A stretch of 59,900 bases of DNA from Palleronia caenipelagi (GTDB lineage Bacteria > Pseudomonadota > Alphaproteobacteria > Rhodobacterales > Rhodobacteraceae): the NCBI RefSeq assembly GCF_007004065.1, contig NZ_VFSV01000020.1, forward strand, positions 1 to 59,900, read 5' to 3'. Position numbers and translations under genes: made by a program. Below, one piece after another: positions 1,812-47,549 of the stretch; position 1 is the stretch's first letter, and every line of letters begins with the position of its first letter. The notes beneath the pieces are model-generated. The model was not told where the DNA came from and did no database searches. It was given only the letters and a program-made list of their open reading frames with translations.

Positions 1812-1812
1812 G

Positions 1813-3454: not shown

Positions 3455-3483
3455 CCCGGTGAAGCCCTTCACCGGGCCTTTTT
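3455..3483 (+). terminator. Rho-independent terminator between MuF and protease genes
   Basis: The arms CCCGGTGAAG (3455-3464) and CTTCACCGGG (3467-3476) are perfectly complementary and are followed by CCTTTTTGCG. In practice the loop would be four bases with a nine-pair stem. It separates the upstream head genes from the protease/capsid block and argues that the protease gene starts downstream of it. Confidence 0.8.
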
Positions 3484-3533
3484 GCGTCCACCCGCGCCAG
3501 AACCCCCTCATCACCACGAGGGAGAGAGGGGCT

Positions 3534-4969: not shown

Positions 4970-4986
4970 TCCCGGAGATCCCGATC

Positions 4987-8858: not shown

Positions 8859-9214
8859 CCGAGGCCGCCCGCAGGCTCTTCGCGCGGCGGCCTGACACCA
8901 CCGCGCTCCGCGAGGATCTCGCGCTGAGCGGCATGGGAGAGGAAGAGATTGCCGCGATGATCGCCGAGCTCCATCCTGACACCCCCCTTGAGCTGCCCGC
9001 CCTGTTTCGCCCGGCGATCACGCTCATCACTGCGCTCTCGGGCCAGTGGCGCATGGCCGGGGGCGGGCTGGGCCCGCTCCGCCCTGTGGCCCTCGATCTG
9101 ACCGCCCTCGATGTGGCCGCCCGCTGGCTCGGGATCGCCCCATCCCCCCGTCTTCTGTCCGAGATCCGGATCCTCGAGGCCGAGGCCCTGCGCCAGATGC
9201 GGGACCGCCCATGA
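8855..9214 (+). CDS. Tail assembly chaperone, frameshift extension (lambda gpT-like)
   Basis: The -1 frame reads LTEAARRLFARRPDTTALRE and continues for 119 residues to the stop at 9214. It is coding-like from the first codon after the slippery site, while the first ATG (8933) lies 26 codons inside, so it is best read as an extension of the 8502 protein. The C-terminal part is helical (ALDVAARWLGIAPSPRLLSEIRILEAEAL). The fusion product would bind the tape measure. A separate product from 8933 cannot be excluded. Confidence 0.75.
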   Translation: MTEAARRLFARRPDTTALREDLALSGMGEEEIAAMIAELHPDTPLELPALFRPAITLITALSGQWRMAGGGLGPLRPVALDLTALDVAARWLGIAPSPRLLSEIRILEAEALRQMRDRP

Positions 9215-12200: not shown

Positions 12201-12390
12201 GCAGATCCAGATCATCCAGAACACGCCGGTGCAGATCGAGGCGCAGCAGGGCACCGATGCCCGTGGGCGCCGGCAGACCCGGCTCGTTATTTCCGAGGCC
12301 GTGGGAGAGGGCATCGCCGCCCCCGGTGGGCGCGGCGGCCGCGTCCTCACCGAGACCTTCGGTCTGGGCCGCAGAGGGGTGGCGCGATGA
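9211..12390 (+). CDS. Tape measure protein with embedded muramidase domain
   Basis: A 1059-residue tape measure that sets tail length. The first third is helical and coiled-coil-rich (residues 1-180), followed by an Ala/Gly-rich hydrophobic stretch near 185-225, likely membrane-active. Residues about 590-740 form a lysozyme-like domain. This opens with RDLIIRFEGK, continues with GYGSSTVT and later QIAAIASIQHNYG and NYDRRMAEAALF, like GH24-type phage lysozymes with the catalytic Glu in FEG. It would cut the cell wall during DNA entry. The C-terminus (ARTGGTGIMRTLSAG-like, then GDEHLAVLRRGEEVFTPRML) matches siphovirus tape measures. The start overlaps the chaperone stop. Confidence 0.85.
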   Translation: MRQLRTSLVLSGDSKDLTRALDEAGREFRKAGGTAGEFAQILDHMRVPARRSAQSIIDGATGAGRAMSDARRSAAAFEASLDAQERSFRALKASIDPVYRAEQQFAAAQEQVNRALRTGSASAEEAAGVMRRLEAQYQTARTAALALDGAQGGVGRGSRALRGQIQNTAFQLQDFAVQVSAGTAASVALGQQLPQLLGALGVWGAVIGAAVAIGVPFAASLFDGAEGASDMGKALDALNAATDRYAAALKAALIPGAELRALFGDLGDEIERLRDLQLAGAERAAGLSVRDLGTTIARDLGGISRTRVTGADQSYLGDVSTVTEFERALARVEERYKLSASAAELFLGQIEALGAADGAEAQAKILRNITELLSRAAATGDDAARALGSEDGLLATFEGALEATLDRVKTAASETWATLLAEATARQRDLDALTKQQADARARLAAAEEAADAEAARAARAVLDLLDEKARAITDTEGRVDALTGQFGELSLEAGRIAFDQDGAARQALYEMDRQLQAARTGIDDLNDADLSTLEAAMAALKSLIDGVSDSASEMGRTLSRAQVDAYQAYGRSRATGDRLSATDRLQASRDLIIRFEGKAPAGKWDENAFRAGYGSSTVTLADGSVREITEGMQISWADAGRDLDRRIRGYHDALRGLVGETTFQGFTPAQIAAIASIQHNYGAIPGQLRPALQTGDAQIIAEQIARMAMHYTRSERAAGKTGKPLNYDRRMAEAALFGDVRAQGLRNTTALGDQATAERDARRAAEIRDREARRQSEESARAAGQRDARDARTRDQITGALDTLTPAYARDLAAAERWRDAELARADSWQAGVTRGLRAIEAETRTFADVSADLFTTWSDGIGDAIGKMVQTGKFEISDLIDYTAAQFAKLAFQQTLQPGLNSVLNTLIGGLGAVLPGGLGGLGAAALPTAHTGGTGIMRTLSAGASLRGDEHLAVLRRGEEVFTPRMLENAGAIVDALASSPPSGGPPVAIDARPQIQIIQNTPVQIEAQQGTDARGRRQTRLVISEAVGEGIAAPGGRGGRVLTETFGLGRRGVAR

Positions 12391-13361: not shown

Positions 13362-13801
13362 CCGGGTCCCCCAACTGGCCCCTGAATGGGCCCCTGAACT
13401 GGTCCGACGCCTATATCGGCATCCCTTATGCTGAGGGCGGGCGCACGGAGCGGGGCTGCGACTGCTACGGGCTGATCCGTCTCATCTATGCGCGCGAACT
13501 GGGGATCGGCCTGCCCGCCTACAGTGCCGCCCCCTGTGCCACCGAGCGCGCGGAGATCGACCGCCTGGTGGGTCAGGAGGCCGGGACCGGTCCCTGGACC
13601 CGCGTCACCGACCAGGCCCCCTTCGATGTGATCCTCTGCCGCATGGGCGCGCTCGACAGCCATCTGGGCCTCGCCGTCACCCCCCGCCTGATGCTCCATC
13701 TCGCCCTCGATGACTGCGCCAAGATCGAACGGATCGACACCGGCCGCTGGGCCCGGCGCATCAGCAGCCTCTGGCGCCATCATGAAAGCCCCACCCGATG
13801 A
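13358..13801 (+). CDS. NlpC/P60-type cell-wall peptidase of the tail tip
   Basis: A 147-residue protein with the NlpC/P60 signature: C36 in GCDCYGLI at the start of a helix, then H102 in DSHLGLAV, and H114 in the following strand as a possible third residue. Such papain-like enzymes cut peptide cross-links of peptidoglycan and sit between tail hub and J protein in GTA and lambdoid tails (lambda gpK). With the muramidase of the tape measure it would open the wall for DNA injection. The ATG overlaps the previous stop. Confidence 0.85.
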   Translation: MTGSPNWPLNGPLNWSDAYIGIPYAEGGRTERGCDCYGLIRLIYARELGIGLPAYSAAPCATERAEIDRLVGQEAGTGPWTRVTDQAPFDVILCRMGALDSHLGLAVTPRLMLHLALDDCAKIERIDTGRWARRISSLWRHHESPTR

Positions 13802-16800
13802 CCCGTATCCTCGCCGCCCCCGCCTTTGATCCCGGCGCCGCCCGGATCGGGATCGATCTGCCCGATGGCCTGACCGTGGCCCAGATGATCGCGGCGAGCC
13901 TTCCGGATCTCGCCCCGGCCGATCACACCCGCCTGCGCGCGACCCTCGTCACCGAGGCCGGCCAGCGCCACATCCCGCCCGCGCTCTGGCCCCACACCCG
14001 CCCCCGGCCGGGCGTGCGCGTCGTCCTGCGCCTCGTGCCCGGCAAGGATGCCCTTCGCTCGGTCCTGACCATCGTGATCTCGGTCGCCTCCATCGCGCTC
14101 GGGGCGTATTTCGGGCCAGCGCTGGCCGCCACGCTGGGCCTGCCCGGCGCCGTGGGCACAGCCCTCGTGGGGCTCGGGGTCACCGCCCTCGGCACGCTTC
14201 TGTCGACCGCGCTGGTGCCACCCGTCCAGCCGCGCGAAGAGCGCCCCCGCTATCAGATCGACGGCTGGCGCAATCGCTTTGAGCCGGGCGGCGCCGTACC
14301 CTCGGTCCTCGGCGAGATGCGCTATGCGCCCCCCTTCGCCGCCACCCCCTGGACCGAGATCGTCGGACAGGAGCAATATGTCCGCGCGCTCTTCACCTTC
14401 GGCGACGGGCCGGTGCGGATCGATCAGATCCGCATCGGGGACACGCCTCTGTCGGAGTTCGAGGACGTGGATCTCCAGATCCGCGAAGGCCATGCAGGCG
14501 ACAGCCGGCTGACCCTGTTCCCCGATCAGGTGGTCGAGGAGCGCGTGGGCGTCGATCTGGTCAAACCCTTGCCCCGCGACAGCGCCGGCAATCCCACCGA
14601 CAGCGAGGGCGTGGAGACCCCCGTGGTGCGCACCACCGGCGAGGATGCCACCGCCGCGCGCCTGATCCTTGCCTTCCCCGCGGGCCTGACCAAGGTCGAT
14701 GACGACGGCGATCTCGTCACCAAGGTGGTGCGCCTGCGCCTTGAGCGCCGGCCCGCCGGCACCAGCGCCTGGGAGACGGTCGACGCGGAGCGCTGGATCC
14801 GCGGGCGCCAGACCGAAGCCTTCTTCCGCGCCGTGGAGATCGCATTGCCCACGCGCGGTCGCTGGGACATCCGTGTCACCCGGCTCAGCACCACCAGCGA
14901 CGCCACCAATATCTCCGACCGGCTGATCTGGGCGGCCTTGCAGACAATCCGGCCGGAATACCCGCTCGCACCGACCCGCCCGCTGGCGCTGCTGGCGCTG
15001 CGGATCCGCGCGACCTACCAGCTCTCCGGGCAGCTCGACAATGTCTCGGCCCGGGTGCGGCGCGTGGCCCCCGATTACGATGCCGCCACCGGAGACTGGA
15101 TCGCCCGGCCGAGCCGCAACCCCGCCACCGCCTTCCGGCAGGTTCTGCAAGGTGCCGGTACGCCCCGCCCGCTGCCCGACAGCGCCCTCGATCTCGCAGC
15201 CCTCGCCGACTGGCATGATTTCTGCGCGGCCCGGGGGCTGCAGTATGACCGGGTCCTTGATCAGACCGGCCAGACCCTGCGCGAGATCCTGAGCGAGATC
15301 GCCGCAGCCGGCCGCGCCCGTCCGGTGCATGACGGGCTGCGCTGGTCCGTGGCCATCGACCGCCCCGGCCAGCCCGTGATCGATCATATCAGCCCCCGCA
15401 ACAGCTGGGGCTTTCGGGCCCGGCGCAGCTATGTGAGCCCCCCTGAGGGGTTTCGTGTGCCCTTCATCGACCGCACCGCGGCCTTCGCCCGCGCCGAACG
15501 CCTCGTGTCATGGCCCGACCACACCGGCGATGTGGACCTGACCGAGGCGCTGGAGCTGCCCGGCAAGACCGACCCCGCCGAGATCTTCCGCGAGGCCCGC
15601 CGCCGCCAGCTGGAGATCCTCCATCGCCCCGAGAGCTACGAGCTCTACCAGGACGGGCCCGTCCGCGTGGCCACCCGCGGCGATATCGTCGCCGTCAGCC
15701 ACGATCAGCTCGATGCGGTCATGGGCGGGGCCCGGGTGTTGCAGGTGATCGGCCGGACCGTGATCCTCGATGAGGAGATCGATCTCCCCGAAGGTCAGAC
15801 CGGCGCGATCCGGTTCCGGATCGCAGAGACCGCAGAGGATCCGGGCCTCTCGGTGGTCCAGCGCCTGCGGGACGTGGCCGGGGGCGTGGTCACGCTCGCC
15901 GAGGACAACCCGGTTCCCCGACCCGGCACGACCGTCCTCTACGGTCTGGCGGAGACCGAGACCCGCCGGATGATCGTCACCGAGGTGGAGACCACCGAAG
16001 ACGGCGCCTGCCTGATGCGGCTCATCGATGAGGCGCCCGAGATCGACGCGATCCTCGACGCGACCCCGATCCCCGCGTGGAACGGACGGGTGGGCACGCC
16101 GCTCGATCTCTCGGCCCTGTCACCCGCCACACCGGTCCTGCGCCGGGTGCGGACCGGCTGGGCAGAGCTGGGGATCATTGGCGGGCTCGAGATCGATCTG
16201 GCCCCGGGCTCAGGCCCCGTCCCGACGCAGACCTTCCTGCTCCATCACCGGCTGACCGGGGCCGTCCCCTGGACGCTGCTGGAGATCCCCGTCGCCGAAG
16301 GCGGGGCCGCGCTGACGGGCTACGGTCCGGGCGATACCGTCGAGCTGCAGGTGGCCGCGCGCGCCGCCACCGGCGGGGACAGCCCCTGGAGCGGGATCGT
16401 CCCGATCGTTATCGCCGATGATGCCCCCGTCGCGCCGGCCGCGCTGCCGCTCTCGGCCATCGATCTCGGGGCCCTGCCCGGGGCGCTCCGCGTCACCGTC
16501 GCCGGTGGCAGCGATCCGCATCTGCGCGCGCTTCGGCTCTACCGCTCCACCGATCCCGTCCTCGACACGGCAGGCGATCGCGCAGGCCCCGATCTGGATC
16601 TTGCCGCAGGTCAAAGCGCCAGCCGCACCCTGGGCGACGCCACCCGCCGCAACCTGCTGACCGCGCCGGGCTTTGCCTCTGCCACCGGATGGGTGCCGGG
16701 ACCGGGTTGGTCCATCGCGGGCGGGACGGCCAGCCATGCCGCCGGCAGCGCCGGTGGGCTCAGCCAGACCGTGACGCTGAAGGACGCCACCGCCTACCGC

Positions 16801-17109
16801 CTCGGTTACCGTCTGAGCGAGGTCGGGGGCGGCAGCGTGACACCGCAGCTGCAGGGGGCGGCGACCAGCGCGGGTGTCCCCCGCAGCTCGGACGGCCTGA
16901 GCCGCGAGCGCCTCGTCTCGGCCACCGGCCAGACAGCCCTCGCCTTTGAGGCGGAGAATGCCTTCACCGGGCAGCTCGACGACGTCCTCCTCTACGAGGA
17001 GAGCACGGCCTGCCTCGCGCAAGGCACCCATTACGTCTGGGTCCAGCCTGTCGGAGAGGACGGCCGGACCGGTCCCATCAGTGGCCCGGTGGCGGTGACC
17101 ATCACATAA
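13798..17109 (+). CDS. Tail tip/host specificity protein J-like
   Basis: A 1103-residue protein. A hydrophobic segment near residues 79-145 (VLTIVISVASIALGAYFG, then GTALVGLGVTALGTLLS) resembles the membrane-like region of lambda J/GTA tip proteins. Residues 160-520 hold the conserved tip domain with FTFGDGPVRIDQIRIG and TYQLSGQLDNVS. The rest is a chain of fibronectin-like and carbohydrate-binding-like beta modules, with GWVPGPGWSIAGGTASHAAG near residue 965 like a CBM4/9-type fold. It forms the tail tip and contacts the receptor. The start overlaps the NlpC stop. Confidence 0.85.
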   Translation: MTRILAAPAFDPGAARIGIDLPDGLTVAQMIAASLPDLAPADHTRLRATLVTEAGQRHIPPALWPHTRPRPGVRVVLRLVPGKDALRSVLTIVISVASIALGAYFGPALAATLGLPGAVGTALVGLGVTALGTLLSTALVPPVQPREERPRYQIDGWRNRFEPGGAVPSVLGEMRYAPPFAATPWTEIVGQEQYVRALFTFGDGPVRIDQIRIGDTPLSEFEDVDLQIREGHAGDSRLTLFPDQVVEERVGVDLVKPLPRDSAGNPTDSEGVETPVVRTTGEDATAARLILAFPAGLTKVDDDGDLVTKVVRLRLERRPAGTSAWETVDAERWIRGRQTEAFFRAVEIALPTRGRWDIRVTRLSTTSDATNISDRLIWAALQTIRPEYPLAPTRPLALLALRIRATYQLSGQLDNVSARVRRVAPDYDAATGDWIARPSRNPATAFRQVLQGAGTPRPLPDSALDLAALADWHDFCAARGLQYDRVLDQTGQTLREILSEIAAAGRARPVHDGLRWSVAIDRPGQPVIDHISPRNSWGFRARRSYVSPPEGFRVPFIDRTAAFARAERLVSWPDHTGDVDLTEALELPGKTDPAEIFREARRRQLEILHRPESYELYQDGPVRVATRGDIVAVSHDQLDAVMGGARVLQVIGRTVILDEEIDLPEGQTGAIRFRIAETAEDPGLSVVQRLRDVAGGVVTLAEDNPVPRPGTTVLYGLAETETRRMIVTEVETTEDGACLMRLIDEAPEIDAILDATPIPAWNGRVGTPLDLSALSPATPVLRRVRTGWAELGIIGGLEIDLAPGSGPVPTQTFLLHHRLTGAVPWTLLEIPVAEGGAALTGYGPGDTVELQVAARAATGGDSPWSGIVPIVIADDAPVAPAALPLSAIDLGALPGALRVTVAGGSDPHLRALRLYRSTDPVLDTAGDRAGPDLDLAAGQSASRTLGDATRRNLLTAPGFASATGWVPGPGWSIAGGTASHAAGSAGGLSQTVTLKDATAYRLGYRLSEVGGGSVTPQLQGAATSAGVPRSSDGLSRERLVSATGQTALAFEAENAFTGQLDDVLLYEESTACLAQGTHYVWVQPVGEDGRTGPISGPVAVTIT

Positions 17110-25613: not shown

Positions 25614-28600
25614 TCAACAACCAGCGTGGCCTTTGGCCTCTTTGAGCAGGCTGGCCAATTCGTTGAACCCTTGTGAAAGTGCAACTTCCGCGGCGGTTGC
25701 GCCCAAACCACTATGCCTTCTCAGAGGATCAGCACCGGCGCGGAGCAAGACGGAAACGACATCAGTCTGACCATTGGCGGCTGCAACCAGCAATGGCCAG
25801 CTCGCATTTTTCGTGTTGGCTTTTTCTATATCCGCGCCGGCGGCGAGCAGTGCGTCCACCACGGCGGCATGGCCCTGCAGCGCGGCCAGAAGCAGCGGGA
25901 AGGTGCCCCTCTGCTCATTGGCTCTGTTCACCTCCACGCCGGCGGCGAGCAGCGCGTCCACCACGGCGGCATGGCCCTCCTGCGCGGCCTGAAGCAGCGG
26001 CAAGGTGCCGTTCTGCTCATTGGCTCTGTTTACCTCCGCGCCGGCGGCGAGCAGCGCGTCCACCACGGCGGCATGGCCCTGCTGTGCGGCCAGAATCAGC
26101 GGCAAGGTGCCGTTCTGCTCATTGGCTCTGTTCACCTCCGCGCCGGCGGCGAGCAGCGCGTCCACCACGGCGGCATGGCCCTCCTGCGCGGCCTGAAGCA
26201 GCGGGAACAGGCCGTTCTGCTCATCAATCTGGTTCACCTCCGCGCCGGCGGCGAGCAGCGCGTCCACCACGGCGGCATGGCCATTGTGCGCGGCCATAAG
26301 CAGCGGGAACGGGCCGTTCTGCTCATTGGCTCTGTTCACCTCCGCGCCGGCGGCGAGCAGCGCGTCCACCACGGCGGCATGGCCCTCCTGCGCGGCCATA
26401 AGCAGCGGGAAGGTGCCGTTCTGCTCATTGGCTCTGTTCACCTCCGCGCCGGCGGCCAGCAGCGCGTCCACCACGGCGGCATGGCCATTCTCCGCGGCCA
26501 TAAGCAGCGGGAACGGGCTGTTCTGCTCAATGGCTCTGTTCACCTCCGCGCCGGTGGCGAGCAGCGCGTCCACCACGGCGGCATGGCCCTCCTGCGCGGC
26601 CATAAGCAGCGGGAAGGTGCCGTTTTGCTCATTGGCTCTGTTCACCTCCGCGCCGGCGGCGAGCAGCGCGTCCACCACGGCGGCATGGCCATTCTCCGCG
26701 GCCATAAGCAGCGGGAACGGGCCGTCCTGCTCATCAATCTGGTTCACCTTCGCGCCGGCGGCGAGCAGCGCGTCCACCACGCCGGCATGGCCCTCCTGCG
26801 CGGCCATAAGCAGCGGGAACAGGCCGTTCTGCTCATTGGCTCTGTTCACCTCCGCGCCGGCGGCGAGCAGCGCGTCCACCACGGCGGCATGGCCATTCTG
26901 CGCGGCCATAAGCAGCGGGAAGGTGCCGCTCTGCTCATTGGCTCTGTTCACCTCCGCGCCGGCGGCGAGCAGCGCGTCCACCACGGCGGCATGGCCATTC
27001 TGCGCGGCCAGAAGCAGCGGGAAGGTGCCGGATTTTTCATGACAATCGTCCGCGTTGATCCCCTGCGATAGCAGTAGCTGCACGCCGCTGACGTAACCGA
27101 TTTCCGACGCAACAATCAGCCCTGACCCAGATGATGCGCCAAGAAGCGTGGACAGCGGCGCGGGCACCGTGCCGCAGAACAGCTTTGCTGCACCTGTATG
27201 ACGGGGAAAATCATCGGCCAAGCGGCCAAGAAAGCCCAGATAGGACATGACATCGAGCGTTGCCGCGTCTGTTGTCAGTTGATCCGGACGGACCGTTCCA
27301 AGCTCGCTGGACAGCTCGGCGCAAACCTGAAACTCCGCAACGATGTCCGGGCTTCTGGCCTCAATCCTATCACCATCCGCCCCACCATACCCGCAAAGCC
27401 GGGCGGCAGCATCCCTCGTGTTGTCCGGGAAGTTTTGAAGTTCGTAAAATTCGAGCAAGGCGGTTTCGCCAGCGTGACGTTCCTTGAGGCTCCTAACGAG
27501 GTCTCTGGACACATCTACCCCACCGATCATGTTTGCCAGCAGTGCGAGATTCCTGGCCCCCTTTCCGGGGGCTTCTGCCATATGGCTCTGCTCGTCATTC
27601 AGCAATCGTCCGAGGATATCGTCGAGCGTCAACGCCCCATCAGACGGCTTGTAAGTTTCTGCAAAGATCATCGCGAACAACGGGCGGGTGCTTTTGCGGT
27701 CCTCGCCCCGATGCAGGAAAGAAAGAAGGGCCCTGCAACCAACTTCATCCAATCGGTCACGCCCGCGCGCGGTTCGCCATTCCTGTGCGATGCTGACCAG
27801 CGTAGTATCACACAAGGGGTCAAGCTGGAGTGGATTTTCTTTCTTGAATACCGTCACGTCGAGCGTGGCCGTATCTGCGGAACTCGCCCCGCTCGCGCGT
27901 AACCAGCTCGTTGCGGAAATTCCATGGTTCGTATCAAACTTGAATGGCGTCCGTTCCAGGATCAGCACTCGAACTGGATGATCAATACTGGGGTTGCCTT
28001 GCTTTATGCGACGCTGAAGACTGGCCATCATTTCAACGAATTGTTTCGCCTTATCCGGAGCTGCGACGTAATCAATGACAAAGAGGGTCGGCTCTTTGAA
28101 CTCGACCGTGTTCCAGTTGAGCTGCGACAGGTCCCGGCGCTGAAGAAAGCCTGCGTGCCATTCTGGTGGTACCTGTTCCAGAAATTCTAGCGCCAAACGA
28201 CTCTTACCCTGACCGCCATCGCCACTCACCTGCCACCAGGACAAGGGTTTATCTGTTTCAATAAAATCTCTTAGGCTCTGGGTTGCGCTTTCCCTACCGA
28301 CAAAGGATGTACCCTGTGCTTCAAAGTTAAGTCGGTTCAGAGCAGCCGGCGAGGCCGCGACATCCTGAAACCGTCGGATCAACGGGACGACATTGGGACC
28401 ACGCTGATTACGTTCTCTATTCAGCTCCTCAAGAAGTGTCTGCAGACTGCGTTTTACGTCCAGGGCATCAGCCTGATGCTGTCGAAAGGTCTGCAATACC
28501 TCAATTTGAAAGATATTGTTGCGCAGGCCTTGATACTCAGGCTGGTTCAGCAGCGCCTTCGTTGCGGCCTCAAACAAGCTCTTCAACTTGGCTTCGAGAG

Positions 28601-28958
28601 CATCTTCTCCCCGATCCAATGGCAAAGCGCCAACGATCTGCACTGCGATTGCGCGGTAAACATCGTCGTTTCGCTCTGCACTGGTCAGAGCGGCGCGAAG
28701 AGTGCCGTCGGATGGCGGTTTAAGCAGATAGGTCGCGTCACTGAGCAAAGCAGTCATACGTTCACGCTCGGCCTCGGAAAAGGCGAGGTGCGTTTCGAGC
28801 TGCGCAAGATCCAGTTTCAGCCTCTTGCTAGCATTTCTGCCAAGAATTATTGCGGTGCCCGCCCCGATGGCAACATCTTTGCCACCACCCAAAGCGTCTC
28901 CGAGCATCAGGGCGCACAGGCCAACACCCGCTTGCAGCAGACCAATTGCAGCCGACAT
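25614..28958 (-). CDS. STAND-type NTPase with C-terminal ankyrin repeats, candidate anti-phage sensor
   Basis: A 1114-residue protein. Residues 1-40 are hydrophobic and may anchor it in the membrane; residues 45-200 are helical. TSFVGRES near 217-224 precedes a P-loop, GDGGQGKS (246-253), and a Walker B strand TLFVIDY (291-297), as in STAND/NACHT-like ATPases. Residues 642-1049 are twelve 34-residue ankyrin units, with a weak unit before and after. Such proteins oligomerise after ligand binding and often act in phage defence. GGAG sits six bases before the ATG, and the start is 13 bases after the stop of the small ORF upstream. No effector domain is recognised; the N-terminus may be the effector. 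Confidence 0.75.
25812..27035 (-). repeat. Twelve tandem 102-bp repeats encoding ankyrin units
   Basis: The segment is exactly twelve units of 102 bp, with high identity even at silent sites. Variation is concentrated at unit positions 2-5, 9, 12-13 and 30-33, for example [10 protein letters not shown] versus [10 protein letters not shown] and NRANE versus NQIDE. The ankyrin consensus core ([16 protein letters not shown]) is nearly invariant. Near-identical tandem units imply recent duplication or gene conversion and expected copy-number change. Confidence 0.9.
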
Positions 28959-31784: not shown

Positions 31785-32640
31785 GCAGATCAAATCCGTC
31801 ACCGCGCTCCCGGTGGAGGGCATCCATGTTGAGGACCGGCTGCGCGACACCAGCGAGGCCGGGGTCGAGGCGATCATGGCGTCGATCCGGGATCTGGGGG
31901 TGATGAAAGACCCGATCCATGTGCGCAAGGTGCGCCACCAGGAGAACCGGCTGGTGCTGATGGCCGGGGCGCACCGGCTGGAGGCAGCGAAGCGGCTGGG
32001 CTGGGACGAGGTCCCGGCGACGCTCTGGACCTGCAACGACGCTTTCGCCCGGCTGATGGAGATCGACGACAACCTCGCCTCGGCCGAGCTCACACCGCTC
32101 GATAACGCCGTGTTCCTCGCCGAGCGCAAGCGGCTCTATGAGGAGGAGTTCCCAGAGACGCGGGCCGGTGTGGCCGGAGCTTTGCACAAAAATTGTGCAA
32201 CGGACATGATGTCCGTTGCAGCTTTCGCGACCACCACCGCCGAGAAATTCGGTCTCTCGGAGCGCCATGTGCGGCGGATGGTGTCGGCGGGCGCGCGGAT
32301 CACGTCTGACGAAGCGCGGCATTTGCGGCAGGCGCCGCGCCCGGTGACGCTGGCCGATCTGCAGACCATCGGTGGCATCCCGGATGACGACAGGCGGGCC
32401 GAGGTGATCCGCCGGATGGCCGTCGGCGAGGCGAAGAACGCCAGCGATGCGCTGAACGCCATGAAGGCGGAAGCGCTGGGCGCGATGATCGAGACCCCGG
32501 ATGACATCATGTTCCGCAAGCTGGCGGGCAACTGGCGTCGGGCGGGCATGCGGGCAAAGCGCCGGTTCGTGGCGCAGGAGCTGACGGAACTGGCCCGGCT
32601 GGTGGCAGAGGCGCAAGCCGGAGGGGGCAGCGATGACTGA
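31774..32640 (+). CDS. ParB-like nuclease/partition-domain protein
   Basis: A 288-residue protein with a ParB N-terminal domain: ARLRDT-like opening, MASIRDLGVMKDPIHVRKV, then the signature LMAGAHRLEAAKRLGWDEVPATL (about residues 62-84). A putative HTH follows (TAEKFGLSERHVRRMVS, residues 153-169). ParB-like proteins of this size are common just upstream of the transposase in alphaproteobacterial Mu-like phages. A role in DNA binding or transposition control is likely; partitioning is unlikely for an integrated phage. It overlaps the transposase gene by eight bases. Confidence 0.75.
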   Translation: MAAEQIKSVTALPVEGIHVEDRLRDTSEAGVEAIMASIRDLGVMKDPIHVRKVRHQENRLVLMAGAHRLEAAKRLGWDEVPATLWTCNDAFARLMEIDDNLASAELTPLDNAVFLAERKRLYEEEFPETRAGVAGALHKNCATDMMSVAAFATTTAEKFGLSERHVRRMVSAGARITSDEARHLRQAPRPVTLADLQTIGGIPDDDRRAEVIRRMAVGEAKNASDALNAMKAEALGAMIETPDDIMFRKLAGNWRRAGMRAKRRFVAQELTELARLVAEAQAGGGSDD

Positions 32641-34744
32641 CCAGCCCGACCATCTCTGGTGGAGCGCGGCCGAGCTGGCCTGTGCCAACCTGCCGGGCCT
32701 TCCGGCCAGCAAGCGGCGGATTGCGGATTATATCCGGCGCACCGGCTGGGACGGAATGACCGGCAAGGTCCGCCGGAGAGCGGGTCGCGGCGGCGGCCGG
32801 GAGTATCACTGGACACTCCTGCCGCCCGAGGCGCGGGCGCGGCTTCTGGCGCAGACGGTCAAGACGACGGCCCCTGCCGCTGAGCCGGGCGACCGACCCG
32901 ATCGGGAGAGCGTCTGGGCGATTTTCGAGGCGCTGGGCGACAAGGCGAAACTGACCGCCGCGCGGCGGCTGGAGATCCTGCAGACCGTGGAGAAGCTGGA
33001 GCTGGGCGGGCTGACCCGGGAGGAAGCCGTCAAGGCGCTCTCGGACGCAAACGCCATCTCCACGCGGACGATCTGGAACTGGTTTGCTTTGGTCAAGGAG
33101 GTGCGGCGCGATGACTGGCTGGCCTATCTGGCCCCGCAGCATGGGGCGGCGGCGCGCAAACCCACCACCGTCGACCCGGAGTTCGGCCAGCACCTGAAGA
33201 GCGACTACCTGCGCTCGGGGCAGCCCTCTTTCCGGTCCAGTTATGACCGGGCGAAAGACTGGGCCACGACAGCAGGTGTCGAGGTGCCGCCCTTGCACAC
33301 GGCGCGGCGCTGGTATCAGGCGACCACCTCGAAGGCGGTCGAGACGCTGGCCCGGAAAGGGGCCGATGCGCTCAAGGCGCTCTATCCGCCCCAGATCCGG
33401 GACCGCTCGGATCTGCATGCCCTGCAAGCCATCAACGGCGATTACCACCGGTTCGATGTGTTCGTGCGGATGCAGACGCCCGAGGGGCTGACGGTCCTGC
33501 GCCCGCAGATGGTGGCGTTTCAGGATCTGGCTTCGGGCAAAATCCTCGCCTGGCGGCTGAGCTACAGTGCCAACAGCCAGACCGTGCAGCTCTGCCTCGG
33601 CGATCTGATCGAGGAGTGGGGCATTCCGGAGCAGGTGCTTCTCGACAATGGCCGGGAGTTCGCCGCGAAAGCCATCACCGGCGGGACGAAGACCCGGTTC
33701 CGCTTCAAGGTCAAAGAGGATGACGTGGACGGGATCCTGACGGCGCTGGGCTGTCAGGTGCATTGGGCCACGCCCTATAGCGGCCAGTCGAAACCCATCG
33801 AGCGCGCCTTTCGCGATCTGTGTGACCGGATCGCCCGACACCCGGCCTGCGAGGGCGCCTACACGGGCAACAAACCCGACGCCAAGCCCGAGAACTGGGG
33901 CGCGCGGGTCGTTGAGCAGGAGGCCTTCGAGGCGCTGGTGGCGCAGGAGATCGTCGCGCACAATGCCCGGCCCGATCGCCGGTCTCAGGTGGCATATAAC
34001 CGCTCCTTTGATGACGTGTTCAACGAGAGTTATCAGACCGCCCCGATCCGCCGGGTGACAGAGGAGCAGCGCCGCATGCTGCTGCTGGCGGCGACCGGCG
34101 TGACGGTCAGCAAAACCCACGGGCGCATCCAGTTCATGGGCAATGCGTATTTCAGCGAGTTCCTGCACGCGCATCTCGGCGCGCGGGTGATTGCCCGCTT
34201 TGACGACCGGGCCTTGTGGAACGGGCTGCACATTTACGACCTGTCGGGCCGGTATCTCGGCCATGCGGAGTGTCAGGAGGCGGTCGGCTTCTTCGACGTC
34301 CACGGGGCAAAGACCATCCAGCGGGCCCGCAAGACCTTTGCCCGGGCGACCCGCGACATGCTCAAGGCCCAGCGCCAGCTCAGCGCCGCCGAACTGGCAG
34401 AGCGAGCGACCGCGTCGCTGCCCCCGCCGCCTGAGAAGCCAGAGCGGCAAGTCGTGCAGATGGTCCCGCCGGGCAACCGCATGGCGAAACCCAAACCGCG
34501 CACGGCCGAGGAGGAACGTCCCATCGAGGAGATCGTCACCTCCATCGGCGCGCGGCGCCCCGAGCGCCGGGTGGCCGACGAGCGGGAGCTCTTCGCCGAG
34601 GCCCGGATGCTCGAAGCGCGCCAGGCGCGCGGCGAGGCGCTGACAGAGGATCAGGCGCGGTGGCTGCGCGCCTACCAGACGCATCCGGACTACCGGGCGC
34701 AGAAGATGATCGCGGATCAATCGCGGTCGCGTGGAGAGAGATAG
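32633..34744 (+). CDS. Transposase, MuA homologue
   Basis: A 703-residue DDE transposase that integrates the phage and replicates it by transposition. The N-terminus (about residues 1-65) is a winged-helix DNA-binding domain (WWSAAELACANLPGLPASKRRI). The catalytic core has D270 in NGDYHRFD, D338 in LLDNGREF and E390 in KPIERAF, nearly the same numbers as the DDE residues of MuA. The C-terminal 150 residues are charged and should contact the MuB ATPase and, in Mu, ClpX. The gene overlaps the ParB-like gene upstream; a 63-base gap separates it from the ATPase. Confidence 0.95.
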   Translation: MTDQPDHLWWSAAELACANLPGLPASKRRIADYIRRTGWDGMTGKVRRRAGRGGGREYHWTLLPPEARARLLAQTVKTTAPAAEPGDRPDRESVWAIFEALGDKAKLTAARRLEILQTVEKLELGGLTREEAVKALSDANAISTRTIWNWFALVKEVRRDDWLAYLAPQHGAAARKPTTVDPEFGQHLKSDYLRSGQPSFRSSYDRAKDWATTAGVEVPPLHTARRWYQATTSKAVETLARKGADALKALYPPQIRDRSDLHALQAINGDYHRFDVFVRMQTPEGLTVLRPQMVAFQDLASGKILAWRLSYSANSQTVQLCLGDLIEEWGIPEQVLLDNGREFAAKAITGGTKTRFRFKVKEDDVDGILTALGCQVHWATPYSGQSKPIERAFRDLCDRIARHPACEGAYTGNKPDAKPENWGARVVEQEAFEALVAQEIVAHNARPDRRSQVAYNRSFDDVFNESYQTAPIRRVTEEQRRMLLLAATGVTVSKTHGRIQFMGNAYFSEFLHAHLGARVIARFDDRALWNGLHIYDLSGRYLGHAECQEAVGFFDVHGAKTIQRARKTFARATRDMLKAQRQLSAAELAERATASLPPPPEKPERQVVQMVPPGNRMAKPKPRTAEEERPIEEIVTSIGARRPERRVADERELFAEARMLEARQARGEALTEDQARWLRAYQTHPDYRAQKMIADQSRSRGER

Positions 34745-42341: not shown

Positions 42342-43883
42342 ATGGCCGTGCTCGATCCCTATGGCCGCCCTGTAAAGCTCGCCAGGCTCACCGAAGAGCA
42401 GGCCGCGCCGTCGCTCACGGGCATCCGCTCGGCCTTTGCCGAGGCCGTCGCGCTGGGCCTGACCCCGGTCAAACTCGCCGGCATCCTGCAGGCCTGTGAT
42501 CAGGGCGATCTCGGGGCCTTCGTGCAGCTCGCCGAAGAGATGGAGGAGCGCGATCCGCATTACTTCTCGGTGCTGGGCACCCGCAAGCGCGCGGTCTCTG
42601 GCGTGGCGCCCCGCGTGGTGCCCGCCGGGGAGAGCGCAAAGGAGAAGGCCATCGCCGAGGCCGTCACCGAGCAGATCGCGGAGGCTGAGGGGTTTTCCGA
42701 GCTGATCGAGGATCTGCTCGATTGTCTGGGCAAGGGGTTTGCGCTGGTCGAGATCGACTGGCACCGGGATCGCAGCCGCTGGTGGCCTGCCGGGTTTGTC
42801 CGGGTCGATCCGCGCTTTGTCACCTATGACCGGGAGACCGGGCGCGAGATGCGGCTTATCGATGAGGAGGACATGGTTGGCGGCGTTCCGCTCACGCCGT
42901 TCAAGTTCATCCGCATGGACGCCCAGCTCAAATCAGGTCTGGCCTTCCGGGGCGGGCTCGCGCGGGTCGTGGCCTTCTCATGGATGTGCAAAGCCTACAC
43001 GCTGAAGGACTGGATGGCCTTCGTGGAGACCTACGGGCTGCCCCTGCGTCTCGGCCGCTATGGTCCCAGCGCGACGCCTGAAGATCGCAAGGTGCTGTTG
43101 CGCGCGGTCGCCAATATCGGCTCGGACGCCGCCGCGATCCTGCCCGATGACATGCGCATCGAGTTCACCGAGAGCAAAGGCACGACCGGCGACAAGGTGT
43201 TCGAGAACCTCGGGCGCTATGTGGACGAGCAGATCTCCAAGGCGGTGCTCGGCCAGACCATGACCAGCGATGACGGCTCGTCCATGGCGCAGGCCGAGGT
43301 GCACAATGAGGTGCGCCACGATATCGCCCAGGCCGATGCAAGGGCGGTGACCGCGGCGCTGAACCGCGATCTGGTCCGGCCCTTCGTGGATCTGAACTTC
43401 GGGGTGCAGGCGACCTATCCGAAGCTCCTGATCGAGATCGCCGAGGCCGAAGACACCGACATGGTGTTGCAGAACGTGGCCCGGCTGGCCGCGCTGGGCG
43501 TCCGCTTCCGTCAATCCGAGGTGCGAGCCAAGCTCGGCTTCTCCGATCCTGACGCTGATGACGAGGTGTTCGGTGGCCCAGTGGCCAAGGCCCGGCCTCA
43601 GACGACCGAGCCTGCGACGAAGGACGCCCTGAACCAGCCCGGGACCGCGCCCTGGTGGGAGGAGCTCGACGCGATCGAACGACAGGAGGCGGAGGACTGG
43701 CAGGGAGTGATGGATCCGCTGACCGATCCCATCGACGCGGTGATCCTTGGCAGCACGTCCTTTGAGGAGGCGATTGCCCGGCTCGGCGAGGTGCTGCCGC
43801 AGATGCGGAGTGCGCCCCTGATCGACCGGCTGGTGAGGGCCATGGTCCAGGCCCGCGGCCTCGGGGATGTCCGCGATGGCTGA
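42342..43883 (+). CDS. Portal protein, Mu gp29-like (DUF935), intact
   Basis: A 513-residue portal starting 21 bases after the terminase with an AAAGGAG site. It carries the typical N-terminus (DPYGRPVKLARLTEEQ), ELAEEMEERDPHYFSVLGTRKRAV, and the late STMAQAEVHNEVRHDI-like motif near residue 318. It forms the twelve-fold ring through which DNA enters. It provides the full-length reference for the truncated copy at 334. Confidence 0.9.
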   Translation: MAVLDPYGRPVKLARLTEEQAAPSLTGIRSAFAEAVALGLTPVKLAGILQACDQGDLGAFVQLAEEMEERDPHYFSVLGTRKRAVSGVAPRVVPAGESAKEKAIAEAVTEQIAEAEGFSELIEDLLDCLGKGFALVEIDWHRDRSRWWPAGFVRVDPRFVTYDRETGREMRLIDEEDMVGGVPLTPFKFIRMDAQLKSGLAFRGGLARVVAFSWMCKAYTLKDWMAFVETYGLPLRLGRYGPSATPEDRKVLLRAVANIGSDAAAILPDDMRIEFTESKGTTGDKVFENLGRYVDEQISKAVLGQTMTSDDGSSMAQAEVHNEVRHDIAQADARAVTAALNRDLVRPFVDLNFGVQATYPKLLIEIAEAEDTDMVLQNVARLAALGVRFRQSEVRAKLGFSDPDADDEVFGGPVAKARPQTTEPATKDALNQPGTAPWWEELDAIERQEAEDWQGVMDPLTDPIDAVILGSTSFEEAIARLGEVLPQMRSAPLIDRLVRAMVQARGLGDVRDG

Positions 43884-45093
43884 CCATCCGGATCGCCCGG
43901 ATCGCCCGGACTACAGCTTCACCCCCGGCCCGCCGCCGGAGGTGGCGCGGTTCTTTCGCGGCAAGGGCCTGCACCCGTCCTTCAGCTGGCAGGATGTGGA
44001 GCCCGAAGAGCATGCCGTGGCCTTCACCGTGGCGAAGATGGCCGAGCTGGACCTGCTCAAAGCGGCAAAGGCCGAGGTCCAGCGCGCCATTGACGAGGGG
44101 CTGACCTTCGAGACCTTCCAGAAGAGCTGGCGCGGCAATGACCGGCTGAAGGAGTGGTGGGGTAAGGCGCGCCAGACCGATCCGGTGACCGGCGAGAGTA
44201 AAGTGGTGACCCTCGGCAGCCCACGCCGCCTGCGCACGATCTACCGCACCAACCTGCGCGCGGCCCGCGCCGCCGGGCAATGGGAGCGGATCGAGCGCAC
44301 GAAAGAGGCGCTGCCCTATCTTCAGTATCGCCTTGGCCCCTCGGAGGAGCACCGCCCCGCCCATGCGGCGCGGGCCGGGCTTGTTCTGCCGGTCGATGAT
44401 CCGTTCTGGTCAGCGTGGATGCCGCCCAATGGCTGGGGCTGCAAATGCTGGGTGCGCCAGATCACGCGCGCGCGGGCCGAAGCGCTGGGCGTCAGCGATC
44501 CGCCGCAGATCCCGACGAGCGAGGTGGTCAACACCCGCACCGGCGAGGTCCGGGATGTGCCGGCCGGGATCGATCCGGGCTTTGACCGCAATCCCGGCCA
44601 GATGCGTCTGGCGCATATGCAGCAGCTGCTCGATGGCAAACTCGCTGACGCCGATGAAGCCACCGCCCGCGCCGCGCTGCGCGATATGGCGTCGAGCTGG
44701 ATGGTCGAGCGGGTGCTGAAGGGCCAGTCCGGCGCGAAGGTCTCGATCGGCCTCCTGCCACCTGAGATCGGCGACGTGGTCGGCACCACGGCGCGGTTCG
44801 CGAAGATCACCGATGAGTATGGGCTGAAGATCGGCACGAAGGACACGCCCGCCACGCCGGAGCTTATGCGTCGGATATCGGACGGGCTGGCGGAGGGGCC
44901 GCTTTACCATGAGGCGCGCGAAGGCCGCGCGCCAGCGCTGGTACAGCCGGTGACAGATGAGACAGGGGCGCTGTTCGAGGTTGTGTGGAAGATCCTGCCG
45001 GGTGAGGTCTGGTTATCGACGGCGCACAAGACGACCCGGCGGCGCTGGCAGCGCCGTGTGAAAGACAATGGCCGGAAGCTGATCCGTGAATGA
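43876..45093 (+). CDS. Minor head protein MuF (gp30-like)
   Basis: A 405-residue head-morphogenesis protein related to the first 260 residues of the copy at 1813, including FRGKGLHPSFSWQDV, LRTIYRTNLRAARAAGQW and PPNGWGCKCWVRQITR. Its last 100 residues differ: EARLVQPVTDETG-like beta strands and WLSTAHKTTRRRWQRRVK, perhaps a small nuclease-like domain of the kind fused to other MuF proteins, though no motif is decisive. The start overlaps the portal stop; an in-frame ATG at 43867 is equally possible. Confidence 0.8.
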   Translation: MADHPDRPDRPDYSFTPGPPPEVARFFRGKGLHPSFSWQDVEPEEHAVAFTVAKMAELDLLKAAKAEVQRAIDEGLTFETFQKSWRGNDRLKEWWGKARQTDPVTGESKVVTLGSPRRLRTIYRTNLRAARAAGQWERIERTKEALPYLQYRLGPSEEHRPAHAARAGLVLPVDDPFWSAWMPPNGWGCKCWVRQITRARAEALGVSDPPQIPTSEVVNTRTGEVRDVPAGIDPGFDRNPGQMRLAHMQQLLDGKLADADEATARAALRDMASSWMVERVLKGQSGAKVSIGLLPPEIGDVVGTTARFAKITDEYGLKIGTKDTPATPELMRRISDGLAEGPLYHEAREGRAPALVQPVTDETGALFEVVWKILPGEVWLSTAHKTTRRRWQRRVKDNGRKLIRE

Positions 45094-45338
45094 CGCGCCT
45101 GGAGGGGCGGAGGCTTACCCTCCCAGGACTTTAAATGCCTGGCGGTCCGTCTGGTTCAGGCGCGTCACTGATATTATGCGCCTTTCGGGAGCGATTTTCA
45201 ATGAGACGGTCGGAGGCTTATTCGGGAGTGACGCGTCCGGAGGGACGGAAATTCCCCTCCCAGGACTTTAAATGCCTGGCGCTCCGACTGGTTCGAACGC
45301 GTCGCGGATATTATGCGCCTTTCGGGAGCGATTTTCAA
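45091..45338 (+). repeat. Tandem pair of 110-bp elements with conserved secondary structure
   Basis: Copy A is 45091-45200 and copy B 45229-45338, offset 138 bases. Each folds the same way: a closing stem (A: GACGCGCCTG with CAGGCGCGTC; B: GACGCGTCCG with CGAACGCGTC), an inner stem GGAGGG with CCCTCC, and a second inner stem CCAGG with CCTGG. Two closing-stem pairs changed on both sides between copies (C-G to T-A and T-A to C-G), keeping pairing. An identical 31-base tail follows. Copy A starts at the MuF stop. The remaining gap to the protease (45339-45644) holds no gene. Confidence 0.8.
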
Positions 45339-45414
45339 CGGATTTGCCCCCGATCTGGCCCGGCCCCACCCGCAGGCGACGGATCGCCCCGGTGGTGTCC
45401 CTCAGACTTCGCCG

Positions 45415-45429
45415 TTAAACACCAGTTAA
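45415..45429. promoter_or_regulatory. TTAA-N7-TTAA site (CtrA-like)
   Basis: Two TTAA words separated by seven bases match the consensus of CtrA, the cell-cycle regulator of alphaproteobacteria. The site lies 230 bases before the protease gene. In such GC-rich sequence the match is notable, but binding is not shown. Confidence 0.35.
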
Positions 45430-45589
45430 ACGGGTCTGTGGCGCCGGGATGGATTTTCGGGGGTCTCGGGTCCCGGGAGGCAAAAGCGGGGCTTTCTGAG
45501 GCCTCTGAGCGCGTCGCCCCTTGGCAGGGGCCAGACCAGCCGCTAGCCTCGACCTGTCTCCCCCCGCATGATCGCAGCCAGACCGACCG

Positions 45590-45638
45590 CCCCCCGACAT
45601 CTGTCGGCGGAGATCGGGGCCAAGCGCCCCGCTAGAAC
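45590..45638 (+). promoter_or_regulatory. Probable late promoter with Mor-type operator, copy 2 (protease/capsid genes)
   Basis: The same 27-base block as at 38569, with the dyad at 45594-45607. TAGAAC (45633-45638) lies 25 bases after the dyad, exactly the spacing of the presumed -10 box in copy 1. The expected transcript start is close to the protease ATG, so its message may be leaderless. The position equals the Mu PI promoter. Confidence 0.65.
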
Positions 45639-45644
45639 GGCCTC

Positions 45645-46619
45645 ATGAACGAGGTCATCCATCCCACCGAACTCATTGCGCTCAACGCCGAAGGTGGCGG
45701 GGTGCCCGACTGGATCAACGTGATCCCGGCGGGTCCCGGCATCCGGGGCATTGACGGGCGCGCCTGGACCCTCAGCGACGCCAATGCGGTGATCGAGACC
45801 TTCCGGCGGCGCGGCAACAAGCTGCCGGTCGATATCGAGCATTCCACCCAGCTCAAAGGCGGCGTCGGGGACCCGGCGCCGGCCATGGGCTTTATCACCG
45901 ATCTGGAGAGCCGCGAGACCGGGCTCTGGGCGAAGGTCGACTGGAACGCGGCCGGCACGGAGCTTCTGCGCTCCGGCGCCTATGCCCATTGCTCGCCGGT
46001 CTTTGCCTATGACGCGGCCCGCCAGATCCGGCGCCTCGTCTCGGTAGGTCTGACCAACAATCCCAATCTGGACCTGGTCGCGCTGAACCGGGCCTTTCCT
46101 TCCCAACCTGAGGAGACACCAGCCATGGACAAGGCGGTGCTTGAGGCGCTTGGCCTCAATTCCGACGCCAGCGCGGCCGATGCGGTCGTGGCGATCACCA
46201 AACTCAAGGAGGCCGAGCAGGTGGCGCTGAACCGCGCCGCGGTGCCGGATCCGGAGAAGTTCGTGCCCCGGGCCGATCACCTGCTCGCGCTGAACCGCGT
46301 GGCGGCGTTCGAGGCGGCCGAGAAGACCCGCGCGGACGAGGCGATCACCGCCGCCGTCGACGCGGCGATCAAAGCCGGCAAGGTCGCGCCCGCCAGCCGC
46401 GACTATCACCTCGCCGCCTGCCGCACCGAGGGCGGGCTTGAGACGTTCACCGCCATGGTCGCGGGTCTGCCCGAGATCGTCACCCCCGCCACGCCGCGCG
46501 CCAAGGACGCGGGTTCGGGAGGTGTGGCTCTGAACACAGACCAGCGGGCCATCGCCGCGGCCTATGGCTGGACCGAAGATCAGGCGCGCGAGGCGTTCGC
46601 CGCCGAGAAGAAAGGCTGA
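45645..46619 (+). CDS. Head maturation protease/scaffold, Mu gpI-like
   Basis: A 324-residue protein. The N-terminal protease domain has NKLPVDIEHSTQL and APAMGFITDLESRETGLWAKVDW, the same motif order as the copy at 3534, then LTNNPNLDLVALNRAF where the scaffold part begins. The ATG at 46124 could start a separate scaffold (Mu gpZ-like) from the same frame. It directs prohead assembly and is then cleaved. The start is very close to the putative promoter. Confidence 0.85.
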   Translation: MNEVIHPTELIALNAEGGGVPDWINVIPAGPGIRGIDGRAWTLSDANAVIETFRRRGNKLPVDIEHSTQLKGGVGDPAPAMGFITDLESRETGLWAKVDWNAAGTELLRSGAYAHCSPVFAYDAARQIRRLVSVGLTNNPNLDLVALNRAFPSQPEETPAMDKAVLEALGLNSDASAADAVVAITKLKEAEQVALNRAAVPDPEKFVPRADHLLALNRVAAFEAAEKTRADEAITAAVDAAIKAGKVAPASRDYHLAACRTEGGLETFTAMVAGLPEIVTPATPRAKDAGSGGVALNTDQRAIAAAYGWTEDQAREAFAAEKKG

Positions 46620-46625
46620 TCCGAC

Positions 46626-47549
46626 ATGGCAATCCTGACCCCCGGGCTCATCACCAATCTCAACACCGTCTACCGGCGCGATTTCCAGACCGCCTATAAC
46701 GCGGCGCGCGAGGCAAGTTTCTTCAACCGCGTCGCCACCCTTGTGCCCTCCGGCAGCACCTCCAATACCTATGGCTGGCTGGGCGACGCGCCGCAGCTGC
46801 GCGAGTGGATCGGGTCCCGTGTCGTCAAGGACATGAAGGCCAGTGGCTACCAGATCACCAACAAGCTCTATGAAGCAACGGTGGGTGTGCCGCGCACCGC
46901 GATCGAGGATGACAGCCTCGGGGTCTACAGCCCGCTGATGGCGTCCATGGGCCAGAGTGCCGCCGACCACCCTGACCGTATGATCGCCGAGATCATCATG
47001 ACCGGGGCCACGACGCTCTGTTATGACGGCCAGAACTTCTTCGACACCGATCACCCTGTGGCTGCGAACCATGACGGGACCGGCGCCGTTACGGCGGTGT
47101 CGAATTACGATAACGACGCGGGCTCGGGCGATCCGCTCTGGGTTCTGCTGGACACCACCAAGCCCCTGCGCCCCTTCATCTTCCAGGAGCGCACCAGGCC
47201 CGAGTTCGTCCAGAAGACCAACGCCGCCACCTCTGACGAGGTCTTCAAGACCGACAATTTCGAATGGGGGACGCGCTACCGCTGCAATGGGGGCTACGGC
47301 TTCTGGCAAATGGCCTATGGCAGCCGCGCCGATCTGACGGCGGCCAGCTTCGAGGCGGCGCGCACGAAGATGCGCAAGTTCACCGCCGATGGCGGGCGCC
47401 CGCTGGGGATCCGGCCCAATATCTGCCTCGTCTCGCCCGACAATGAGAGCGCGGCCAACCGGCTCTTCAAGACCATGGTCGACGCCAACGGCGCGTCGAA
47501 CCCCCATTACAACGCCTGCGAGGTCATCGTGACCTCGTGGCTGCAGTAA
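46626..47549 (+). CDS. Major capsid protein, Mu gpT-like
   Basis: A 307-residue capsid subunit. The landmarks are LREWIGSRVVKDMKASGYQITN, NFFDTDHPVAAN, LRPFIFQERTRPEFVQKTN and the end motif ASNPHYNACEVIVTSWLQ, all typical of Mu gpT. It follows the protease by six bases. It is homologous to, but clearly different from, the left capsid, so the two prophages are not recent duplicates. Confidence 0.9.
   Translation: MAILTPGLITNLNTVYRRDFQTAYNAAREASFFNRVATLVPSGSTSNTYGWLGDAPQLREWIGSRVVKDMKASGYQITNKLYEATVGVPRTAIEDDSLGVYSPLMASMGQSAADHPDRMIAEIIMTGATTLCYDGQNFFDTDHPVAANHDGTGAVTAVSNYDNDAGSGDPLWVLLDTTKPLRPFIFQERTRPEFVQKTNAATSDEVFKTDNFEWGTRYRCNGGYGFWQMAYGSRADLTAASFEAARTKMRKFTADGGRPLGIRPNICLVSPDNESAANRLFKTMVDANGASNPHYNACEVIVTSWLQ

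Follow-up and report, generated by a model that had tools for sequence, protein, structure and literature searches.

The window, by which we mean the whole 59,900-nt stretch of Palleronia caenipelagi contig NZ_VFSV01000020.1, contains a Mu-like transposable phage with genes for the transposase, portal, MuF head protein, I protease and major head protein gpT (Table 1). Between the MuF and protease genes lie two copies of a 110-bp element, 87% identical and spaced 137 bp apart, the first of which begins at the MuF stop codon (TGA, 45091-45093), as an earlier sequence-only reading had noted. No further copy was found in the phage's own 4.0-Mb host assembly at E ≤ 0.001.

Table 1. Features of the Mu-like phage and of the tandem element in the window.
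Feature	Position	Strand	Basis or remark
Mu transposase	32633-34744
Portal	42342-43883		Relation to other portals
MuF head protein gene, 408 aa	43867-45093	+	Pfam Phage_Mu_F, 4.1e-16
C-terminal domain of MuF, 148 aa	44647-45090	+	MuF-C/PBECR-like by predicted fold; adjoins RNA copy 1
110-bp element, copy 1	45091-45201
110-bp element, copy 2	45229-45338
RNA copy 1	45090-45169	-	Covariance model R2, 68.2 bits
RNA copy 1, closing stem	45166-45157 with 45101-45092	-
RNA copy 1, pseudoknot half CGGA	45149-45146	-	In junction strand
RNA copy 1, hairpin A	45142-45138 with 45127-45123	-
RNA copy 1, hairpin B	45122-45118 with 45106-45102	-
RNA copy 1, pseudoknot half TCCG	45111-45108	-	In loop B
Sigma-70-like promoter of copy 1	45173-45201	-	TTGAAA, 17 nt, CATAAT
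RNA copy 2	45228-45306	-	Tandem paralogue, same CGGA/TCCG pseudoknot
Sigma-70-like promoter of copy 2	45310-45338	-	Identical to copy 1 promoter
Mu-like I protease	45645-46619	+	Next head-module gene; Pfam Mu-like_Pro, 1.4e-51
Mu-like major head protein gpT	46626-47549	+	Pfam Mu-like_gpT, 2.7e-110

Portions of two Mu-like phages may be present in the window. At its left end is another Mu-like head module (369-5883; Portal_Mu 1.8e-94, MuF 1.1e-15, gpT 5.6e-107) with tail-like genes after it (tape measure, 9046-12390; GpJ-like, 13798-17109), and the MuF gene of this left module has no such RNA behind it. A 1114-aa ankyrin-repeat protein (25614-28958, minus strand) contains about 12 similar 102-bp repeats at 25831-27030 with 91% matches, which suggests that they expanded recently.

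Both copies of the element have the closing stem and the inner stems GGAGGG/CCCTCC and CCAGG/CCTGG described in the sequence-only reading, and the base-pair swaps that it reported between the closing stems are compensatory as described. Other details had to be revised. On the minus strand, the closing-stem change that it took for a C-A mismatch reads as a G-U pair, and the identical 31-base tail that it counted as part of the RNA is a sigma-70-like promoter on the minus strand. Such a promoter stands before each copy and reads leftwards into it (2 promoter-like sites versus 0.1 expected), so the RNA is likely encoded on the minus strand. Single-strand folding of 81-nt units gave z-scores of -3.69 and -2.41 on the minus strand and -3.88 and -1.80 on the plus strand; as a 111-nt plus-strand unit, copy 2 reached only -0.56, and plus-strand copy 1 preferred a different fold. 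The folding evidence from the window is mixed. Two copies alone say little, and the proof comes from relatives.

We searched for those relatives with covariance models, using the gpT of the window as bait for fetching related phages. A genome of the same genus (G007) carries several diverged copies, and 12 of 14 genus genomes had no match. The first model, R1, was built from seven copies and had matches at E ≤ 0.01 in 10 of 295 family genomes, a count that includes the window's own genome and a few doubtful rows. Judged by their ORFs, most of the R1 sites examined are Mu-like phages or remnants, while G007:C13 and G090 are host loci. We then fetched 110 Mu-like IMG/VR loci by gpT and portal, several of which are the same contig fetched twice. 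A model of 30 sequences (R2) matched 32 of 100 of these loci at E ≤ 0.0014, every match being antisense to the head genes; among the other ten, the window's own record alone matched (33 of 110 overall). Genome-contig loci with a portal gave the RNA in 22 of 80 cases at E ≤ 0.02.

These 22 genome-contig matches are in Loktanella, Cereibacter, Fuscovulum, Maritimibacter, Aliiroseovarius, Gemmobacter, Profundibacterium, Stappia, Robiginitomaculum and others. Among 12 phage records, Ochrobactrum phage POA1180 was the sole match, between MuF and protease (E 3.8e-5); the searched stretches of Mu, RcapMu, RC1, RS1, DMS3 and the remaining records had none. Matches were few class-wide (3 of 385 genomes) and phylum-wide (3 of 398), with the own genome included and one match judged to be chance. 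A third model (R3) matched 16 of 394 family genomes at E ≤ 0.001; four of its places (L283, L284, L288, L290) repeat RNAs already in the set and are not independent. By eye we treated as chance matches G1071, which lies within a protein-like ORF, and L033, L036, L053, L104 and L296, and we dropped the short DNA matches in G382, G025 and G392.

The RNA relatives thus sit in Mu-like phages, mostly of Alphaproteobacteria. The sequence-only reading had proposed beforehand that related Mu-like phages be searched, and they carry the RNA at the same place with covarying stems. It had also named a common host intergenic repeat as the finding that would speak against it. We rule this out, since most copies are in phages and few in host loci, the own genome has two copies only, and most genus genomes have no match.

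Several sites are Mu-like remnants or short elements with RNAs near gpT (L039, L014, L016, L046, L286, L285), and gpT precedes I in those remnants where both are visible. The first four had no portal, MuF or terminase match. Possibly, all six are defective or satellite Mu-like elements with RNA arrays.

Across the family the RNA is about 70-80 nt long and consists of a closing stem and two hairpins, which form a three-way junction, together with a pseudoknot that covaries. Our set of 68 typed hits contained 67 distinct sequences. Four of these were unparsable and one (L244) was misparsed, leaving 62 sequences, with 50 representatives; a free parser, which misaligned many rows, played no part in the counts. 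Both-side changes were present in 17 of 19 nested pairs among the 62 sequences (shuffled mean 11.2, with 0 of 500 shuffles as high). The covariation score was 0.439 versus 0.158 for shuffled alignments and at most 0.108 for slid partners, with the reservation that the alignment was fitted to the model structure, which favours the score. These figures bear out the earlier claim of selection on RNA structure. Among the 50 representatives, parsed by script, the nested stems were canonical in 808 of 850 cells.

In the pseudoknot, four bases of the junction strand pair with loop B. This is CGGA/TCCG in the window and elsewhere CGTC/GACG, CGCC/GGCG, CGTG/CACG, CGCT/AGCG, CGGT/ACCG, CGCG/CGCG and others, which makes 30 different combinations, not all of them perfect. 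Full 4-bp pairing occurred in 34 of the 50 representatives, versus a mean of 13.2 and a maximum of 22 when loops were swapped between sequences (1000 swaps). With the CGGA/TCCG type set aside, 20 of 36 were perfect (mean 6.3, maximum 15 in swaps).

Such pairing bears directly on whether the element might act as DNA, either as a cruciform or as a gyrase site. Its position would suit the latter, given that Mu has an annotated gyrase cut site (SGS), characterized by gyrase cleavage at the phage centre, in the same interval, between genes G and I (L158). However, pseudoknot covariation and promoter placement argue against a DNA-level element, as does the absence of a match in the searched Mu stretch. 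Nested-stem cells on the minus strand also held more G-U (35) than A-C (12), a weak argument because the parser favours G-U. We regard action as DNA as very improbable and a structured minus-strand RNA as close to certain.

No known RNA accounted for it. Rfam 15 yielded no family above the gathering cut-off, and a permissive scan of the window region gave an unrelated best match (E 9.7), which excludes a known Rfam family and fits the earlier suggestion of a candidate new RNA. A tRNA or tmRNA was ruled out, as ARAGORN detected neither. Like the Mu-gpT-DE motif (Rfam RF03012), which is named for the Mu-like gpT gene, ours is a structured RNA, but 0 of 33 records scored above the cut-off of that motif, so it is not Mu-gpT-DE.

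Most relatives have the promoter as well. A pattern of TTGN, 16-18 nt and YA, placed 3-10 nt before the stem, was found in 45 of 49 representatives versus 1.3 expected from shuffles (L037 has no upstream sequence and was left out). It was present in 33 of 34 MuF-linked RNAs and 12 of 15 others. This test is independent of the models because they hold at most a few flanking bases and exclude the promoter. Upstream of the RNA promoters there is also, by eye, a stretch like CACAGACCCNTTTAACTGGTNTTTAA, noted at about 45415-45445 of the window and at L005/L007 and, less exactly, in the G007 copies.

Read from its promoter, each RNA begins with the closing stem, and copy 1 would end on the MuF stop codon, which overlaps its putative 3' end. 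No terminator-like site was found in 44900-45700. On this basis we rejected an intrinsic terminator or attenuator, which leaves the earlier suggestions of an attenuator or of 3' processing of the sense mRNA unsupported; among the functions proposed there, a small RNA was the right one. We also dropped the closing stem as a terminator, since the U-content behind it is alike in MuF-linked and other copies (means of 2.77 versus 2.80 T in 8 nt).

The placement of the RNA relative to MuF is very regular. In 44 of 50 MuF-linked cases the nearer RNA end lies at most 5 nt from the stop codon, and in 47 of 50 the RNA is antisense; the three sense copies lie 27-29 nt behind MuF. Convergence and abutment of this kind would be expected if the RNA acted in cis, with antisense transcription or a double-stranded end limiting read-through from MuF into the protease gene. 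The three sense copies are at odds with this, as are copies near a repressor, behind MuB, in host loci or at sites without MuF, and antisense action needs no pseudoknotted fold. We consider cis control a distinctly improbable explanation.

Occurrence of the RNA varied with the length of the MuF extension. A MuF protein was identified at 181 of 213 loci, and where the RNA was present the C-terminal extension was about 142-168 aa. In the raw table, with some phages counted twice, long MuF had the RNA in 64 cases versus 83 without, and short MuF in 0 versus 34. The raw table scores four borderline RNAs as present (L149, L258, L206, L209), two of which (L149 and L258) were in the R3 training set. 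After removal of 10 cut loci and 20 duplicates, 124 long MuF (extension of at least 100 aa) remained, with the RNA present in 51, borderline in 4 and absent in 69, versus 0 of 27 short MuF (Fisher p 6e-6, without correction for kinship). Six close phages without the RNA, L181 and L194 among them, were rescored unfiltered and gave no convincing match behind MuF.

The RNA also tracks the sequence of the extension. Among 45 loci, RNA distance correlated with C-terminal domain distance after control for the N-terminal part (partial r 0.47; 0 of 2000 permutations) and hardly with N-terminal distance after control for the domain (partial r 0.09; 222 of 2000 permutations). At L069, L075 and L076 the domain has been exchanged between near-identical N-terminal parts. 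These are 95-98% identical, their domains are 70-78% different and their RNAs are 0.37-0.43 apart, compared with a mean of 0.38 per pair. Co-inheritance of this kind shows a cassette rather than binding, because domain and RNA are neighbours and linkage alone could swap both jointly.

The association persists outside intact MuF genes. At G528:C196 and G351:C67 there is a domain piece with no detected MuF N-terminal part and with the RNA directly behind it, and at G351:C50 the domain is complete while MuF is reduced to a trace. A further RNA behind a domain piece (G528:C364) was not counted, since the piece reaches the end of its stretch and an intact MuF may lie beyond. The conserved feature found behind the domain is the RNA. 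By computation, the RNA is a new structured family associated with an exchangeable domain of MuF. On this outcome the sequence-only reading was right to propose a phage-linked structured RNA under selection, and wrong on strand and tail; the pseudoknot and the link to the MuF domain were not part of it.

Three Stappia loci (L205, L206, L215) have divergent RNAs behind MuF (R3 E 0.0033, 0.23 and 0.0036), and the domain profile did not detect their MuF extensions; here a distinct type of domain may be paired with a distinct type of RNA. In DMS3 (L166) the annotation places an anti-CRISPR gene and an HTH gene in the interval ahead of the protease gene. Together with the gyrase site of Mu, this suggests that the interval may be a general slot for extra functions.

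We turned to structure prediction for the identity of the domain. An AlphaFold2 model from 40 sequences (pLDDT 95.1, pTM 0.89) has an element order that fits the BECR fold, with an N-terminal helix followed by four to five strands. Six predicted viral structures in BFVD matched at E ≤ 1e-3, including 'Nuclease' and 'Phage MuF C-terminal domain-containing protein'. A fold search of the PDB gave none at that threshold (BrnT, an RNase toxin, came sixth with E 0.23), and a PDB sequence search gave no useful match. Pfam PBECR3 matched one of 40 domain members (4.8e-5), PBECR2 and MuF_C each matched single members weakly, and the window's own domain matched no Pfam family. None of 23 records reached the MuF_C cut-off, and these include Mu itself (E 1.2e-6). 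By predicted fold, then, the domain is a candidate relative of the RNase-like MuF-C/PBECR group (Iyer et al. 2017, PMC5512222; Pfam PF18810, PF18812, PF18819), with the fusion to MuF in common; the last-strand Ser/Thr is kept in 39 of 40 members and the helix His in 23 of 40. It differs in that almost all of its sequences fall below the Pfam thresholds and in having a putative RNA partner, none being mentioned in the accessible part of that paper.

The His residue is not what distinguishes RNA-linked domains. It is present in 17 of 33 domains with the RNA (Ser/Thr in 33 of 33) and in 6 of 7 without, which argues against the idea that the RNA occurs only where the nuclease is active. The window's domain keeps the last-strand Thr and has Asp in place of His, so the toxicity of this copy is doubtful.

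These residues matter for an explanation in which the RNA is cargo, scaffold or substrate, bound by the domain in the head or at DNA ejection, or cut by it, with no antidote involved. The co-inheritance data fit this explanation equally, and the 16 of 33 RNA-linked domains without the typical His suit binding more than cutting. The available part of PMC5512222 describes Mu's own MuF C-terminus as an inactive PBECR acting 'probably via RNA binding', a prediction in the same direction. The sigma-70-like promoters count against cargo, scaffold or substrate, as do RNAs in genomes with no detected domain and arrays of mixed type, both of which would instead be expected of immunity. We hold it to be unlikely.

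RNAs away from the domain were found repeatedly. Six of 12 RNA-bearing draft genomes had no domain match at E ≤ 0.001, though three of the six are only 80-83% complete. An array in G286:C129 has CGGA and CGTC pseudoknot types side by side with no domain in 19 kb, arrays in G048 and G365 are likewise of mixed type with no domain within 1.5 kb (types assigned by eye), and G872 has three RNA copies and no domain. The window pair and the G007 pairs are each of one type. Arrays of mixed pseudoknot types are what would be expected of collected immunities.

Dispersed copies, including those in host loci, would also fit a moron in the form of a trans-acting small RNA that regulates host or phage mRNAs, with the site behind MuF being only a tolerated insertion slot. 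An own promoter in 45 of 49 representatives suits such a regulator, and the anti-CRISPR gene of DMS3 and the gyrase site of Mu occupy the same interval. This would, however, leave unexplained why RNA similarity tracks the C-terminal domain, why 0 of 27 distinct short MuF have the RNA, and why it lies behind domain pieces outside intact MuF. A regulatory small RNA of this sort is, in our view, also unlikely, by a shade more so than cargo.

We favor instead a pairing of RNA and domain. The window would hold two tandem small-RNA genes, each driven by its own minus-strand sigma-70-like promoter, and each RNA would be a three-way junction locked by the junction-to-loop pseudoknot. The RNA would be the cognate partner of the exchangeable MuF C-terminal domain, the protein gene and the RNA ending at the same place. 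The domain would be an effector of BECR-like (RNase) fold that travels in the phage head and probably enters with the DNA. Host RNA polymerase would make the RNA from the prophage; the RNA would fold, bind its own domain type and block it, perhaps as an RNA antidote. The lysogen would thereby be protected, with an RNA antidote at the site that a protein immunity gene usually occupies next to a MuF toxin. That the RNA is a functional partner of the domain we consider probable. That it is an antidote rather than cargo or substrate falls slightly short of an even chance, and for the statement as a whole we put the chances at about even.

Neutralization seems the most likely role for three reasons. 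MuF toxin genes usually precede a small ORF that putatively encodes immunity, according to the accessible part of Jamet et al. 2017 (PMC5576092); the RNA also occurs at sites that gave no domain match; and in type III systems the antitoxin that counters an RNase is a pseudoknotted RNA (PMC5086642, in part). Against the antidote, 69 of 124 distinct long MuF have no RNA, close relatives included, and His is gone from about half of the RNA-linked domains. RNAs without a domain would also be compatible with other trans functions, and several of the genomes concerned are incomplete drafts.

Type III toxin-antitoxin systems (ToxIN, CptIN, AbiQ) are the closest parallel. The accessible part of PMC5086642 defines them by a pseudoknotted RNA antitoxin, in tandem repeats upstream of the toxin gene, under one promoter with a terminator between, which neutralizes an endoribonuclease toxin. 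Here, too, a pseudoknotted RNA, sometimes in tandem copies, is linked to a presumed RNase, for which the fold is only suggestive. However, our RNA is a three-way junction of about 70 nt rather than an H-type repeat, its copies mostly have their own promoters, it lies behind and convergent with the protein gene instead of upstream in one operon, and the protein to which it is linked is the C-terminal part of a phage head protein.

A second parallel is the MuF polymorphic toxins of temperate phages, described in the accessible part of Jamet et al. 2017 (PMC5576092) as a MuF domain with a C-terminal extension of at least 100 aa; the window MuF has both (Phage_Mu_F 4.1e-16, extension of 148 aa). 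As in that group, exchangeable extensions follow a MuF N-terminal part, an element directly behind travels with the extension, and loose pieces occur elsewhere. Unlike in that group, the rear feature is an RNA and not a small immunity ORF, and the extensions are only putative toxins. The same source leaves open whether the MuF extensions of proteobacterial phages are toxins.

Among the matches listed in our search of open-licence PMC papers, there was no such RNA and no pair of a head-protein RNase-like effector with an RNA antidote. To our knowledge, no described system combines a phage head protein bearing an RNase-like effector with an RNA antidote.

On a broader view, these phages may take part in a polymorphic toxin system with RNA immunity. 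Nuclease-fold tips of MuF would be carried in virions, and tips and pseudoknotted antidote RNAs would be swapped as paired cassettes, with specificity set by the pseudoknot and by the surface of the domain. Arrays of several RNA types would accumulate in prophages, in defective Mu-like elements and in host loci, where they would give immunity to more than one type of phage. This larger picture is tentative, and we rate it somewhat below even. The present work describes a family of structured RNAs that Rfam 15 does not match and links it to a protein domain for which toxicity has been left open and, in the case of Mu's own, RNA binding predicted. Because RNA and domain are small and separable, the question is directly testable in laboratory bacteria. 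If the pair is real, a phage head protein would carry an RNase-like effector with an RNA antidote.
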